DNA of 25,558 nucleotides from the IMG/VR virus record IMGVR_UViG_3300025102_000257, positions 1-25,558 of that record; one strand, given 5' to 3'. The notes beneath the pieces are model-generated. The model was not told where the DNA came from. It did no database searches and saw nothing but the letters and a program-made list of their open reading frames with translations. Positions 3,747 to 23,793 of this stretch are shown piece after piece; within the stretch, counting starts at the first letter, position 1, and each line of letters opens with the position of its first letter. Both the position numbers and the translations under genes were made by a program. This stretch comes from a virus.

Positions 3747-5501
3747 TTAGCGTCTTTCTCCTAACTGATACTCTAATTGAAAACCTTTAAGTGAGTATGC
3801 GGCAGTAGTGCCACCATCATTGACACGTAAAGCTACAGCAAATCCTGAACCTTCTACTGGCTGTCTTACTAAAGGTTGTGATGGGCCACCGTATGTTGGT
3901 GTCCCATAAGTTGATGTTCCATAAATACCTGCAATATTTGTAGAGTCTAATGCATAGGCAGCTGGTCTAGCTGAATCTGATGACTCATAGTCATAACGTA
4001 CAAATAAGTCAGCATCAATTGTTGACTCCGGTTTATAGTTTACAATAACTCTTTGCATATGTTTGCGAATGCCCGGATCATTCATAGTCAAGTCTGGACT
4101 TCTATATCGCCCATTAATTGCTTCACCGTTAAAAGTAGTGCCTTGTTCTTGCCGATAAATAAAACCATCAAATCCGCCGTGTAATACAAGAACATCTCCT
4201 GTAGTAACAAATGTGTCTGTACTAGATGGTTTTATACCTTTGGTAGTTGAAAACTCATATCCTGATTGACCACTACTTTGTGATTTAAGTACACAAATAA
4301 TACCTTCTGTTCTATTTTCTGCGCTGTCTTCTTTAGAAAAGAATAATCGGTATTGTGTTTTATTTGGTATAACTAGAGACTCAAAATTAGAAGAATTATC
4401 TATATTATCATCAAAGATAGATTGAACATTAGCACTTATAGTACCCAGTTCCACATCACCAATTTTGGCTGTACCTGCTACCGTACGCAATCCATCTGGA
4501 CCAAGAAAAATTAGATCACCCGCAAATTCTTGTATAGTATTACCATTGATGCATCCAATGTCGCGTGTAACAGGGGCTACAGTAAAATCACTAGAAGAAC
4601 TACCCGTTACTTTAAATATTCTGTTTTCACAAAAAATAAATAGACTTTCACGGAAAACTTTAAGGCCAACAATTGTATCATCAACTTTAATACTACCTGC
4701 GCCACTGCCACTGTTAAATGCATCTTCGTCAAAAGGCTGACTAAATACTACTTCTTGTGGAGTGCTTGACATACCAGCGTAGAACATGTGTTCTCTATAT
4801 GCTACTACTAGACTTGCACCCTCTACAGAAGACTCTGTAACATCGGTTGCTGCCAAAGAGGTATTGAATACTGTGGGATCATTAGCCCCATCTACTATAA
4901 TAAGTTTATCATTGCCATCAAAGTTGAAGCGTTCAAAAGAATATTTGGTAGCACTTGTACGGCCTGTGTCTCTTGATGTCCACGACTCTGATACAGGTGT
5001 AAGACTTGTATTACCACTTTGTGTATGTGCTGCAGCTGTAGTGCTATTAGCCGCCCGTGTAACACCCGTAAATGTTGTGGCAGTTACACCAGTATAGGTA
5101 AACTGTTCATCATTTATTTGCAACGTTCCACTAGAACTAAAACCTGTAGTAGATTCTACAGTAATAGTGCCTGAACCTGTCATGCTAGTATCGGCAGCAA
5201 TTGCGCTAGTACTATCTGTACCTAATATAGTAGATGCACTAGACCAAATTTTTGTACCACGAGCTGCTACTACTTTGTTATCAAAGTTAGTAACCATCAG
5301 AACTTGTTCACTACTAGAAGAAGTATATGGCACTACTTGACGAATATGCTTTTGAAACCCAAGTATGCGTTTATAGCCACCTTCAATATCCGGCTCAAAG
5401 TTTTCTAACTGTAATGCCTGTCCCGGTTGCATAATAAAAGTAGAACGATTAGCTACTAATCCACCTTCACAAACAAAGGGCAAAGTTCCTGTCTCAGCCA
5501 T
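3747..5501 (-). CDS. Tail nozzle/tubular-type structural protein
   Basis: The 584-residue protein begins MAETGTLPFVCEGGLVANRS and contains LENFEPDIEGGYKRILGFQK at about 32-51, a pattern I associate with T7 gp12-like nozzle or stabilisation proteins of marine podoviruses. The rest is beta-rich, with WxSRDTGRTSATKYSFERFN and VGLKVFRESLFIFCENRIFK blocks like a propeller. A separate beta insert (about 105-165, LQINDEQFTYTGV... GVTRAANST... AAHT) also occurs in the upstream tail gene. The start at 5501 overlaps the preceding stop as TAATG, so the two tail genes are translationally coupled. The general virion assignment is good; the exact gp12 equivalence is inferred from order and style. Confidence 0.8.
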   Translation of the reverse strand: MAETGTLPFVCEGGLVANRSTFIMQPGQALQLENFEPDIEGGYKRILGFQKHIRQVVPYTSSSSEQVLMVTNFDNKVVAARGTKIWSSASTILGTDSTSAIAADTSMTGSGTITVESTTGFSSSGTLQINDEQFTYTGVTATTFTGVTRAANSTTAAAHTQSGNTSLTPVSESWTSRDTGRTSATKYSFERFNFDGNDKLIIVDGANDPTVFNTSLAATDVTESSVEGASLVVAYREHMFYAGMSSTPQEVVFSQPFDEDAFNSGSGAGSIKVDDTIVGLKVFRESLFIFCENRIFKVTGSSSSDFTVAPVTRDIGCINGNTIQEFAGDLIFLGPDGLRTVAGTAKIGDVELGTISANVQSIFDDNIDNSSNFESLVIPNKTQYRLFFSKEDSAENRTEGIICVLKSQSSGQSGYEFSTTKGIKPSSTDTFVTTGDVLVLHGGFDGFIYRQEQGTTFNGEAINGRYRSPDLTMNDPGIRKHMQRVIVNYKPESTIDADLFVRYDYESSDSARPAAYALDSTNIAGIYGTSTYGTPTYGGPSQPLVRQPVEGSGFAVALRVNDGGTTAAYSLKGFQLEYQLGERR

Positions 5502-19296: not shown

Positions 19297-19680
19297 TTAT
19301 TTCTTTCCAAAGAATTTAGTTGCGCTACGTACTCCAAAAGAAGCGGCAACGATAACTCCCAAGGAATATTGATACCATTCAGGCATTCTGTTGAGTTGGT
19401 CAAAGCCATTCTGTACTATACCTTCCATTCCGGGTATAAACGCTAGTATTAATGGGATGCTGAACAAAATTACTAGCCATTCGTCTTTCCAACTTGATGA
19501 CGAAGAACGAGCCATTTCAATGTCCCAATCAATTTCGCCAGTGGCTTTCTTTTCCATGATAGTCGCTTCAGCTTTAGCTTTTGCAACATTAGCAATTGCT
19601 TTTGCCTTTGTTTGCTCAACTTTGCCATCCATCCAACTCCCTGCTAAATTAGCTAATGGTCCTATTAATAGATTCAACAT
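19297..19680 (-). CDS. 3-TM holin-like protein (gene-transfer-agent holin type)
   Basis: The 127-residue protein has a short hydrophobic N-terminus (LNLLIGPLANLAGSWM), an Ala/Lys-rich amphipathic helix (about 22-48) and two clear membrane segments at about 68-88 (EWLVILFSIPLILAFIPGME) and 103-120 (QYSLGVIVAASFGVRSATKF). The WKDEW box before the first membrane segment and the YxxSLGxIVAASFG ending are the pattern of the GTA-type 3TM holin family. It would permeabilise the inner membrane for the lysozyme encoded two genes downstream. The start overlaps the preceding stop as TAATG. Confidence 0.8.
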   Translation of the reverse strand: MLNLLIGPLANLAGSWMDGKVEQTKAKAIANVAKAKAEATIMEKKATGEIDWDIEMARSSSSSWKDEWLVILFSIPLILAFIPGMEGIVQNGFDQLNRMPEWYQYSLGVIVAASFGVRSATKFFGKK

Positions 19681-19919
19681 TACGTTCTCCTGAATCTTGC
19701 TGTCTTTTTCGCAACACTTTTTGGTTGCTTAACAAATTGTTTGCCCTTACGTGTACCTTCCCTTTTAGCCTTGGTTGTAGCCGCATATTCCTTGGACGAC
19801 AAACTTTTGATAGCGGCTGTCGGTAAATACCGTTCACCAGTTTCACTGGATGGTTTCCCACTCTTTGTTCTCCACTTCTGCTTTGTCCAGTTTTTTAAAC
19901 TCTGCTGTGGTTTTTTCAT
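19680..19919 (-). CDS. Small basic protein (conserved phage hypothetical)
   Basis: This 79-residue protein is strongly basic: about one residue in four is Lys or Arg. Segments LKNWTKQKWRTKSGKPSSET, GERYLPTAAIKSLSSKEYAA and KKTARFRRT form a pattern I recognise from conserved small proteins of marine phages and viruses; I cannot assign a role. Such composition suggests nucleic-acid binding. It overlaps both neighbours by 1-4 bp, so it is made with the holin. Confidence 0.75.
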   Translation of the reverse strand: MKKPQQSLKNWTKQKWRTKSGKPSSETGERYLPTAAIKSLSSKEYAATTKAKREGTRKGKQFVKQPKSVAKKTARFRRT

Positions 19920-20623: not shown

Positions 20624-21709
20624 CTATGCAGCTTCTTCCGCTAGTTCCTCTACAGGGTTTTGTGCAGATACGCCCATCCACTTAGACCATTCCGCGTAGT
20701 AGTGACGCATACCCACCTCATCGTGGATTGTGCCACCTTCGTGTCGTCCGTGCAAGATGTTGCGTGGTTCTGTGCCAGTACGCATTGTAGTCCCTTGACC
20801 AGCTACGCCAATTAAGTCTTCGTGTAGGTTACGCCCGAAAGGTCCCCAAATAGAGTTGTGGTGTTCGATGCGAGTAGCACGGTCTTCTGGACTGTCACTC
20901 TTCAAGCCATATCCACGGAACTCAATCAATACTTTGTTTGGTCCTAGTGGGGTTACGCTATCGCTACGGTAGGCACTGCCTCTAAGATTGAAGTTGAAGC
21001 CGGGGAACAGATCAACCATGTACCACTGATTTGGTGGCAGGTTAGGGAATGACAATTCACCTCTGTCTTCAAAGCCTTCATACTCTTCATATTGCACTGT
21101 AAAGCTAGATACGTTTACGTGTCCATTGTTGAATGGTATGTTCTTACGAGCAAAGTATGCATCGTTGAATCCGGTTACACGATTGTGGTAGTGCATAAAG
21201 TCGTGGTAGAACTCAGAGTTTGTGTCGTGCCACAGTTTGTAGTTTGTATCAATCACTGCCTTGTGGTAGTGGAATACTTCTAGTTCTTCAGCATCAATAG
21301 CACCAGCAATACAATCAAAAGCACCGCCTGTCCATTCTTCTACACTCTGGGTAGGATTAGGGTCAAGTGTTACCCAGACCATGCCGCCATGCTTTACTTC
21401 GCAGTGTAGTTGTGGTTCAACTGTTACAATTGGTGCAGCTACTGTACCAGAGGGAAAATTAAAACCATAATTATGATACGCTTTAACGCCATCTTTGGTA
21501 TTTACTGCAATCACATTTTGACCAGCAATCTGTGCTGTTCTGTAGTTACCTTCGTTACGCATCTCGCTAATGTGACACATTGGAACCCACACTTTAGAGA
21601 ATATCTTTTCTATCTCTTGTTCATATAGGTCTTGGTCAGAGTATATAAGCGAACTGATGTGTTCTATGCTGGGAGTCTTAGTCCACTGTTTATGATTACG
21701 GGGTGGCAT
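20624..21709 (-). CDS. Rieske-type oxygenase alpha-subunit homologue lacking the Rieske ligands
   Basis: The 361-residue protein follows the order of ring-hydroxylating oxygenase alpha subunits: YEQEIEKIFSKVWVPMCHIS (29-48), GNYRTAQIAGQNVIAVNTKD, then WVTLDPNP. The mononuclear iron site is present as E166-x2-H169-x3-H173 in NSEFYHDFMHYH, and D298 in NLHEDLIGV followed by QGTTMRTG. The Cys-x-His and Cys-x2-His pairs that hold the 2Fe-2S cluster are absent; the loop that should carry them (about 76-100, VKAYHNYGFNFPSGTVAAPI) is shortened. Normal electron delivery is therefore not possible, so it may use another donor or have a changed role. Substrate unknown. The start overlaps the preceding stop by 1 bp. 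Confidence 0.85.
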   Translation of the reverse strand: MPPRNHKQWTKTPSIEHISSLIYSDQDLYEQEIEKIFSKVWVPMCHISEMRNEGNYRTAQIAGQNVIAVNTKDGVKAYHNYGFNFPSGTVAAPIVTVEPQLHCEVKHGGMVWVTLDPNPTQSVEEWTGGAFDCIAGAIDAEELEVFHYHKAVIDTNYKLWHDTNSEFYHDFMHYHNRVTGFNDAYFARKNIPFNNGHVNVSSFTVQYEEYEGFEDRGELSFPNLPPNQWYMVDLFPGFNFNLRGSAYRSDSVTPLGPNKVLIEFRGYGLKSDSPEDRATRIEHHNSIWGPFGRNLHEDLIGVAGQGTTMRTGTEPRNILHGRHEGGTIHDEVGMRHYYAEWSKWMGVSAQNPVEELAEEAA

Positions 21710-21939
21710 TAATAAAGTTTTACATCCTCTGGGTTTACATATCTGGGTACACAGTACGCAGTTACTCTATCTTTTGGGTCTACTAGGTATCTGTATTGAT
21801 AGTTACCATATCTCTTAGTAACACGAGAGGCAAAGTAGTTACAATCGTTTATATCACGAAAGTACATATCGCCACTTTCTAGTCTACGTGCATCCCCGGT
21901 TCCCAAGTAAACGAGAAGCAGGAATACATGTGCGGTCAC
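21709..21939 (-). CDS. Small exported protein candidate
   Basis: The 76-residue protein starts with GTG at 21939, overlapping the upstream stop as GTGA. Residues 4-14 (HVFLLLVYLGT) look like the hydrophobic core of a signal peptide with a likely cut near TGDA. The mature part is rich in Tyr/Asp/Arg and has two cysteines (in NDCNYF and AYCVPRY) that could pair in the periplasm. I do not recognise the family. It is co-translated with the Rieske-like gene, but nothing links them functionally. Confidence 0.68.
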   Translation of the reverse strand: MTAHVFLLLVYLGTGDARRLESGDMYFRDINDCNYFASRVTKRYGNYQYRYLVDPKDRVTAYCVPRYVNPEDVKLY

Positions 21940-22220
21940 GACTTATATCCACCACCAGCTTTTTTGTAAGCAGACGCCAGCATTTGGGCTTTTCTTGCTG
22001 ACCACTGACCGGGACCACCACCTTTGCTACCAGCTTTGATACGCTGAAACTGTCGCTTTCTCATTCCGGGCTTAGTATAGTTGCCAGCTTCATTAACTCT
22101 ACTTTTGCTCTTTGGCGCACCACCCGCCGCAAGTTTAACCGTTCCAGTCTGTTTCTTTTTCGCCCTAGCTTGTGGGGCTTTGACTTTTTTAGTGGGGGCT
22201 TTTTTAGAGACACGTGCCAT
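21936..22220 (-). CDS. Lys-rich basic protein, histone-like N-terminus
   Basis: This 94-residue protein has an N-terminal Lys/Ala/Pro tail (MARVSKKAPTKKVKAPQARA) like a histone H1 or H3 tail. A conserved C-terminal block follows (NYTKPGMRKRQFQRIKAGSK, then GPGQWSARKAQMLASAYKKA) that I recognise from many marine phages without a known function. AGGAG lies 6 bases before the ATG. It follows the SET methyltransferase gene by 3 bases, so the lysine-rich tail is an attractive candidate substrate; that link is inference. DNA or RNA binding is likely from charge. Confidence 0.82.
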   Translation of the reverse strand: MARVSKKAPTKKVKAPQARAKKKQTGTVKLAAGGAPKSKSRVNEAGNYTKPGMRKRQFQRIKAGSKGGGPGQWSARKAQMLASAYKKAGGGYKS

Positions 22221-22223
22221 CTC

Positions 22224-22589
22224 CTACTCCTGTTTAGATACTCTGCTTTCCCAATACTCTTCACCGTAGTCGTGAAGTATTTCTTCGCCCTGCTTTATTT
22301 TTTTAAGCGCATAAAATTTAACAAAGCGGTCATCTTGTTCTTCAATGTCCCACTCAGCGTTTGGACTTGCGCTGTGGTTATACACCATAGCGTACCCAAG
22401 TGGAATGTAATACTGTTCCTCATTGATATAAGGAGTGTGTAACATATAGTCATGGAGGATGCAATCATCTCCAAAGTCAGTGTAATCCGCAACCAGATAA
22501 GGACACAACTCAATTGTATCTCCTTGAGTATAGTCCCTATCCGCAAAAACACCAAGTCCATGTATTTTTGAATTTGCAACATATGGCAT
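22224..22589 (-). CDS. SET-domain protein lysine methyltransferase
   Basis: The 121-residue protein is a compact SET domain: the N-terminal SKIHGLGVFADRDYTQGDTI (7-26) gives the SAM-binding GLG turn (G11-L12-G13), NHSASPN (71-77) is the core NHS motif, and GEEILHDYGEEYW (101-113) provides the catalytic-type tyrosine Y108. Cysteines of a post-SET zinc site are absent, as in other short viral SET proteins such as the chlorella virus enzyme that methylates histone H3. It transfers methyl groups from S-adenosylmethionine to lysine. The gene lies between a 47-residue Lys/Met/Gly peptide (TAATG overlap) and a Lys-rich histone-like protein (3-base gap). Confidence 0.9.
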   Translation of the reverse strand: MPYVANSKIHGLGVFADRDYTQGDTIELCPYLVADYTDFGDDCILHDYMLHTPYINEEQYYIPLGYAMVYNHSASPNAEWDIEEQDDRFVKFYALKKIKQGEEILHDYGEEYWESRVSKQE

Positions 22590-22732
22590 TACTTCTTCTT
22601 TGCCATACCGCCGCGCATCATTTTTTTCTTCTTAGCCATCTTAGCCATGCCACCGCCCATCATCTTTTTACGAGCCATACCACCGCCACGCATCTTCTTC
22701 TTCTTAGCCATCTTTGCTTTGCCCATTGCCAT
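22589..22732 (-). CDS. 47-residue Lys/Met/Gly repeat peptide
   Basis: Reverse-strand reading from ATG 22732 gives 47 residues ending at TAA 22589, shorter than usual gene-finding limits. AAGGAG sits about 8 bases upstream of the ATG. The sequence contains 16 Lys, 12 Met and 9 Gly, with repeats of the form MA(K)nM(R)GG(G)M: RGGGM at about 15-19, MGGGM at 25-29, MRGGM at 39-43. The stop overlaps the SET start as TAATG. It is related in style to the KGGMV segments in other proteins here. Its 5' end overlaps the upstream gene by 29 bases. Function unknown; it is a plausible methylation target. Confidence 0.8.
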   Translation of the reverse strand: MAMGKAKMAKKKKMRGGGMARKKMMGGGMAKMAKKKKMMRGGMAKKK

Positions 22733-23249
22733 TTCTTAATCTCCTTCTGTCAATCACTAAAGCGTCATATACGTCTTCCGGAAAGTGTTCATAGTAATTA
22801 GACTTTTCCAGATATAAAGCTGCATCATCTAGTTTAGAAAGTTTCTGAACAAAGACCATACAATAAGATAGGCTGTCGTCCGTAACCTCATCATCGACAA
22901 GGAAATCAAGACCAGCCTCTGTAGCATCATAGTCAGGATGGAACACCATCAAGTGTAAGTCCATACCAACTACAGATGCCAACTCATTTATGCCATCACA
23001 TATACCATCTAGGTATTCCATGTCTGGCAAATCTTCTTCAGCCCATACTACAATGTCGTAGTTATGAACTTCAAATGTACGTATAGATTCTATCAGTCCA
23101 TCAAGTCCAGTATTAATACTGAACACTACCTTGTCATCAGCCCATGCTTTTCTAGCATAGGGGCAAGGCGGTAGACCGTTTAGTTTTGAATTAGGTACTT
23201 CAAGAAAGTCCTTGGACCACTTTCGTATGTCCTGTTCTACAGGATGCAC
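22704..23249 (-). CDS. Conserved phage hypothetical with CPYAR motif
   Basis: The 181-residue protein starts with GTG at 23249, the only usable start after an in-frame TGA. Its N-terminus (IRKWSKDFLEVPNSKLNGLP, then PCPYARKAW) resembles the W...LNxCPFA pattern of DUF1415-type proteins and of unknown marine phage proteins. The rest is an acidic alpha/beta-like sequence (YDIVVWAEEDLPDMEYLDGI, DLHLMVFHPDYDATEAGLDF). A basic tail (VIDRRRLRNGNGQSKDG) overlaps the Lys/Met/Gly peptide gene. Cysteine and histidine residues could bind metal, but no catalytic motif is clear. Confidence 0.72.
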   Translation of the reverse strand: MHPVEQDIRKWSKDFLEVPNSKLNGLPPCPYARKAWADDKVVFSINTGLDGLIESIRTFEVHNYDIVVWAEEDLPDMEYLDGICDGINELASVVGMDLHLMVFHPDYDATEAGLDFLVDDEVTDDSLSYCMVFVQKLSKLDDAALYLEKSNYYEHFPEDVYDALVIDRRRLRNGNGQSKDG

Positions 23250-23251
23250 CG

Positions 23252-23491
23252 CTATACGTCAAATCCCATTTTAAGTACAGCTTGTTTTCCTTTATCTGTG
23301 GAGGCCAGTTTACGCAAACCTTTGTTTGGCAACTTGTCAGTAACATTACCACCACCAGAATACATATGCTTTTTACCATTGGCTGTACCACCCATTGCCA
23401 TCTCAGCCTTCTTCATTTTCTTCAGCTTACTCTTGGGCATAGAACCAATACCGATTGACACAACCATTACGTCATCTTTATTTTTAGCCAT
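23252..23491 (-). CDS. Small basic protein with GG-rich repeat motif
   Basis: The 79-residue protein has a hydrophobic/charged start (MAKNKDDVMVVSIGIGSMPK), then a Lys/Met-rich stretch (SKLKKMKKAEMAMGGTANGK). A GGGNV segment and a small helical end (NKGLRKLASTDKGKQAVLKM) follow. MAMGGTANGKKHMYSGGGNV belongs to the KGG/GGM motif group of this window. The start overlaps the preceding stop as TAATG. Function unknown. An alternative reading frame inside it encodes a lipoprotein-like peptide, noted separately. Confidence 0.75.
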   Translation of the reverse strand: MAKNKDDVMVVSIGIGSMPKSKLKKMKKAEMAMGGTANGKKHMYSGGGNVTDKLPNKGLRKLASTDKGKQAVLKMGFDV

Positions 23492-23793
23492 TAGTATTTT
23501 CCTTTTTTAGATTTGGGACTAGACTTTGTACTACCACCTGCTCCACCCCATAGAGTACGACATGCCCAGTACCGTGCCGATAGTTTATCATTAGCTGTGT
23601 CACACTTATGCCTAGCACGAAATGACTTACGAGCTGCAGCGCTATAGTTGTGACCATAGCCTGTAGCACCGAAGTGAATTAGTTTTATCTTGTCACCATC
23701 CTTGGCAAGAACCATCTTCTTCTTACCTTCACGGTTTGACTTAATAGGTTTGTTATAACCGGGGAAAGTAGTGCCACGATATTCTACACTCAT
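23491..23793 (-). CDS. Small basic protein with RARHKCD...ARYWACR motif
   Basis: The 100-residue protein carries KLIHFGATGYGHNYSAAARK then SFRARHKCD and KLSARYWACRTLWGG at about 57-83. I recognise this Cys/Arg/Trp pattern (RARHxCD... KxxAxYWxCR) from short proteins of marine phages and giant viruses; its function is unknown to me. The two cysteines (C64 and C77) with His and Asp could form a small metal or disulfide site. The C-terminal tail is Lys/Ser-rich and may bind DNA. ATGA overlap with the upstream gene shows coupling. Confidence 0.82.
   Translation of the reverse strand: MSVEYRGTTFPGYNKPIKSNREGKKKMVLAKDGDKIKLIHFGATGYGHNYSAAARKSFRARHKCDTANDKLSARYWACRTLWGGAGGSTKSSPKSKKGKY

Follow-up and report, generated by a model that had tools for sequence, protein, structure and literature searches.

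A vSET-like SET-domain gene linked to a lysine-rich repeat-peptide gene in HMO-2011-type podophages

The window analysed here, a virus record of 25,558 bases taken at its full length, carries one SET gene. This gene encodes a real SET domain under selection, closest to vSET of PBCV-1, and it directly follows the gene for a small Lys/Met/Gly repeat peptide. The same linkage is found across HMO-2011-type phages, in which SET behaves as an optional cassette. What is known of SET enzymes comes mostly from eukaryotic chromatin; to our knowledge, their roles in free-living bacteria and phages are nearly unstudied. Phage SET annotations and vSET itself were already known, and the present enzyme is a new branch; the new element is the conserved coupling of SET to the repeat peptide. 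A full-text search of the open-licence literature found no description of SET in HMO-2011-type phages or in SAR116.

The locus and its phage

The window covers part of the genome of an HMO-2011-type podophage, a member of a phage group that is widespread in the ocean (PMC9038755). It is collinear with Puniceispirillum phage HMO-2011, with 80% DNA identity over 38% of 25 kb, and the neighbouring genes gp61-gp63 and gp66 are common to both. Judged by the gene order of HMO-2011, the slot occupied by SET lies among the structural and lysis genes. Transcription on the minus strand runs from the gp66 homologue (23249-22704) through the peptide (22732-22589) and SET (22589-22224) to a basic protein (22220-21936). 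The features are as follows.

22704..23249, minus strand: HMO-2011 gp66 homologue (phrog_28122), upstream of the peptide; anchor of the census
22741..22746, minus strand: AAGGAG ribosome-binding site, 8 nt 5' of the peptide ATG, read from the sequence
22589..22732, minus strand: 47-aa Lys/Met/Gly repeat peptide (KKMMRGGMAKKK type); adjacency census, gp66-anchored loci
22224..22589, minus strand: SET-domain protein lysine methyltransferase, 121 aa, vSET-like minimal SET; Pfam PF00856, phmmer, AlphaFold, fold searches, dN/dS
22227..22231, minus strand: AGGAG ribosome-binding site of the basic 94-aa protein, within the 3' end of the SET gene, read from the sequence
21936..22220, minus strand: basic 94-aa protein with a variable Lys-rich N-terminus and a conserved phrog_17747 C-terminal domain (E 8e-32)

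The peptide stop and the SET start overlap in TAATG, and a gap of 3 nt separates the SET stop from the basic 94-aa protein. A first-pass annotation had given these coordinates and junctions, the 16 lysines of the peptide and the SET motifs correctly, all on the minus strand. It had also proposed co-translation of SET with the basic small proteins, and SET does appear to be co-translated with them. As no equally good ribosome-binding site precedes SET, the sequence suggests that translation of SET is coupled to that of the peptide.

Five small, strongly basic proteins with net charges of +11 to +25 (19680-19919, 21936-22220, 22589-22732, 23252-23491 and 23491-23793) sit within about 4 kb, and the other proteins of the genome are mostly neutral or acidic. 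The protein at 23491-23793, of 100 aa, has a weak DUF5754 match, below the cut-off. It contains AAARKSFRARH, which resembles the H3K27 site used by vSET; its HMO-2011 homologue has KARKKSYYARH. We gave no weight to AARKS in this protein as an H3-like methylation site, nor to SARK in the 94-aa protein, which is also present in the SET-less HMO-2011. The protein at 20624-21709 is homologous to gp61 of HMO-2011, for which the annotation is methanesulfonate monooxygenase. Its catalytic iron-site region (NYKLWHDTNSEFYHDFMHYH) is retained; the Rieske C-x-H...C-x-x-H motif is absent from both proteins, and the annotated activity is therefore doubtful.

A minimal SET domain maintained by selection

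The SET protein matches Pfam PF00856 over residues 11-109 (E = 4e-13; 50.1 bits against a curated cut-off of 22.4), and its best PDB match by sequence (phmmer) is PBCV-1 vSET, with E = 1e-13. It is a minimal SET protein, its 121 aa holding the SET domain alone, without pre-SET or post-SET regions. The NHS and GEEILHDYG motifs fall at residues 71-73 and 101-109, and N71, H72, P76, N77, E103, Y108 and Y112 are invariant across 31 SET relatives. Four invariant residues, Y48, E103, Y108 and Y112, align with Y50, E100, Y105 and Y109 of vSET. NCBIfam assigned a family to none of SET and its two neighbours.

The AlphaFold model, built from 31 sequences, has a pLDDT of 85 and a pTM of 0.75. Its best fold matches are a Plasmodium SET (4rz0) and vSET (3kma), with Foldseek E values of about 1e-8. 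Alignment with VIA-align gave Z 15.3 and an rmsd of 2.2 over 105 residues for 4rz0, and Z 13.8 and an rmsd of 2.2 over 101 residues for 3kma. There are 279 PDB matches at E <= 0.001, which, among the matches listed, are SET proteins. Pairwise dN/dS between close SET relatives has a median of 0.13 and a maximum of 0.34, and the gene is therefore under purifying selection. Thus, the reading of this ORF as an intact vSET-like enzyme is borne out by the Pfam match, the match to vSET and the invariant catalytic residues.

The likeness to PBCV-1 vSET (A612L; PDB 1n3j, 3kma) extends to a length of about 120 aa, the SET domain alone, the catalytic residues and the YW.SR end, whilst identity to the window SET is only about 30%. 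The hosts also differ: the virus encoding vSET infects algae with histones, and its target is H3K27, whereas the bacterial hosts of the phage SET have no histone H3. Uncultured Caudovirales encode SETs of similar size and fold (for example A0A6J5L8Y2, 34% identical, E 6.5e-10).

An optional cassette behind a core peptide gene

The scans of viral contigs turned up 110 non-redundant SET genes, 99 of them with enough upstream DNA; the second scan took the best 80 of 315 matches, leaving very distant relatives under-sampled. The first point to note is that, in 93 of the 99, the Lys/Met/Gly peptide stops no more than 9 nt from the SET start, with a one-base overlap in 66. At three further loci (L039, L044 and L045) the peptide bears a C-terminal extension, and at L041 it lies about 200 nt upstream; when extensions or insertions within about 200 nt are counted, a peptide precedes SET in 97 of the 99. 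No peptide was present ahead of SET in L051 or in the huge phage LR756501. The adjacency is kept among SETs that are as little as about 50% identical, and the genes that come after SET are of several kinds. Longer Lys/Met/Gly proteins of 167-193 aa lie directly 5' of SET at L023, L024 and L026, their additional repeat units KKKMRGGGMVKAA being interspersed with other sequence.

The peptide of the window has 47 residues, 16 of them lysine, and a net charge of +19. Its last codons differ at synonymous positions while the K/M/G/R residues are retained, so that it looks translated and selected rather than a chance low-complexity ORF. Its gene is one of the small core genes of HMO-2011-type phages. 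HMO-2011 itself (NC_021864; L053, reverse strand 4503-4655) has an unannotated 50-aa Lys/Met/Gly repeat peptide between gp65 and gp66, overlapping the start of gp65, and is without SET; in CRP-345, too, the peptide is present and SET absent. Among loci anchored on gp66, 90 had SET and 91 did not, proportions that reflect the way in which the loci were retrieved and should not be read as frequencies in the population; the peptide was found in 180 of these 181. When the peptide was taken as the starting point, using an exact DNA pattern across all fetched loci (partly chosen for SET), SET came next in 59 cases and did not in 60. The peptide is thus independent of the enzyme, since about half of the loci carry it but lack SET.

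The same gene families occur behind SET or, in SET-less loci, directly behind the peptide. A 119-aa family was found 41 times after SET and 34 times after the peptide, a 93-aa histone-like family 31 and 7 times, and a 251-aa family 2 and 6 times; it follows that SET is an optional cassette inserted after the peptide gene. These counts, together with the one-base overlap that several genes in SET-less loci also share with the peptide stop, fit an adjacency without function, in which the end of the repeat-peptide gene is an exchange slot, SET is one cassette among many and linkage explains the rest. Such an account leaves aside that SET was seen at no other genomic place in the HMO-2011 lineage and occupies the position closest to the peptide at nearly all loci. 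We put its probability somewhat below one half, a figure that is not exclusive, as it is silent on the substrate and compatible with methylation of either the peptide or a host protein. A phage-database search with SET had as its sole match a 735-kb uncultured phage (LR756501/3), which has no peptide-like neighbour.

The basic 94-aa protein behind SET, with a net charge of +25, matches phrog_17747, whose C-terminal domain motif is NYTKPGMRKRxFxRIKAG..GQWSARKAQMLA..YK..GGGY. Relatives of it occur in 17 phage records, and it is widespread among pelagi-, roseo- and methylophages that lack SET. This histone-like protein lies behind SET in 31 of 89 loci, with other families elsewhere; it is a widespread phage family and no conserved SET neighbour. 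Of the two proteins first proposed as substrates, then, the peptide has a conserved adjacency to SET (directly or with the looser count), and the histone-like protein does not.

Peptides beside SET also differ in composition. GKAK occurs in 77 of 89 of them versus 2 of 91 from loci without SET, and S and T are scarcer, and K, M and G commoner, than in SET-less loci. On the gp66 tree, the presence of SET needs 7 changes and is mostly clade-bound, with one well-supported independent contrast. For this reason, the association of GKAK with SET may reflect linkage or shared descent, and we do not take it to prove co-adaptation.

Cellular relatives, a second phage lineage and the candidate substrate

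Genome contigs provided 25 SET relatives, of which the closest, mostly 48-55% identical, are in SAR116 and related alphaproteobacterial records. The SAR116 SETs are solitary genes with the same size and motifs as the phage SET; they differ from it in that no lysine-rich neighbour was seen in their neighbourhoods. Exactly one SET is present in 54 of 136 genomes of SAR116's order, and in a sample of its class the SETs outside that order were all distant ones. Solitary loci of vSET size in SAR116 are L349-L365, L367, L374-L385 and L391-L393.

A second phage lineage (L051, L312-L327) has SET in or near the replication module, and several members have UvrD- or SNF2-type helicases next to it. Loci of this lineage with SET among helicase or DNA-replication genes include L321 (G004:55903-56262), L322, L323 and L327. 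In the tree, the second lineage clusters with the SAR116 SETs (85/94), and the HMO-2011-lineage SETs are on other branches. In G004, a 58-kb member, a distant gp66 homologue precedes a Lys/Gly/Met repeat peptide, some 32 kb away from SET; in G006, a 38-kb fragment, no such pair was seen. The narrow DNA pattern for the peptide had no match in two SAR116 genomes, three second-lineage phages and LR756501, and it misses looser repeats, one of which was later found by an ORF scan among the searched genomes.

These relatives bring in the main rival to the peptide as substrate, namely that SET is a host-type auxiliary enzyme. It would methylate the same host protein as the SAR116 SET, for example a nucleoid or translation protein, keeping or changing its function during infection, and the basic neighbours would not be substrates. 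The solitary genes in SAR116, the limitation of close relatives to one order in the class sample, the second lineage with its replication-module SETs and the fact that HMO-2011 infects a SAR116 strain are all in keeping with this. It leaves unexplained, however, why SET and the peptide remain adjacent whilst the genes behind SET change; moreover, the host of the window is inferred, and the tree does not settle the direction of transfer. We regard it as a serious possibility, at roughly one chance in three.

The location of SET among structural and lysis genes might alternatively point to the virion. PBCV-1 vSET is packaged in the virion and trimethylates H3K27 (PMC7019647), and a phage SET that was packaged and ejected could act early on host nucleoid proteins, as has been proposed for vSET and the histones of its host. 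The second lineage, however, keeps SET in the replication module, and we consider this improbable.

Charge bears on the question of substrate. The median net charge of SETs is -20 in the HMO-2011-type lineage, -17 in the second phage lineage and -14 in SAR116, compared with -6 in the few distant others; the window SET has -15 against +19 for the peptide. This acidity fits a basic substrate, yet it is not special to phage, the SAR116 SETs being acidic too.

The data show what the enzyme is, that its catalytic residues are intact, that it is under selection, and that its gene is linked to the peptide gene and behaves as an optional cassette of HMO-2011-type podophages, in the variable slot directly after the core peptide gene in the structural and lysis region. 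The mechanism that we infer beyond this, from activity and coupling to timing, substrate and effect, would be as follows. SET would be active as a vSET-type protein lysine methyltransferase. It would be translated late, coupled to the peptide through TAATG, together with structural proteins, and would most likely methylate lysine-rich phage proteins produced alongside it, above all the Lys/Met/Gly peptide. Methylation, which retains the charge, could alter the binding of these proteins to DNA or to each other, during packaging or after ejection. We are highly confident of the architecture and of the enzyme. That the phage peptide is the substrate we hold to be close to an even chance, if slightly under it, and the explanation as a whole, an active cassette methylating co-made lysine-rich phage proteins, we place at the same level.

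The peptide is favoured as the substrate because its adjacency to SET persists across divergent SETs and changing downstream genes, because a strongly acidic SET, as a basic substrate would require, is paired with a strongly basic peptide, because GKAK marks the SET-adjacent peptides, and because one phage of the second lineage, G004, also has a gp66 homologue with a Lys/Gly/Met repeat peptide behind it, unlinked to SET. It is weakened by the acidic SAR116 SETs, which have no such neighbour, and by the two SAR116 genomes without the peptide motif as defined by the narrow pattern. The original proposal of an enzyme with its substrates encoded beside it is plausible for the peptide, given the conserved linkage, and weak for the histone-like protein; against it, the peptide is found independently of SET in the 91 SET-less loci, HMO-2011 included. 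A prokaryotic SET acting on a basic DNA-binding protein does have a precedent, as Go1-SET of Methanosarcina mazei methylates MC1-alpha in vitro (PMC3980110). This likeness lies in the reported activity, and Go1-SET differs in being a cellular archaeal enzyme.

The strictest version of the proposal, a self-contained pair in which the vSET-type enzyme methylates its own coupled multi-lysine peptide at many sites and so tunes condensation, packaging or ejection, seems to us rather unlikely. If true, histone tail methylation would have a parallel in a virus of bacteria. The candidate substrate, of about 50 residues, can be synthesised, which makes the targets of prokaryotic and phage SETs directly testable.
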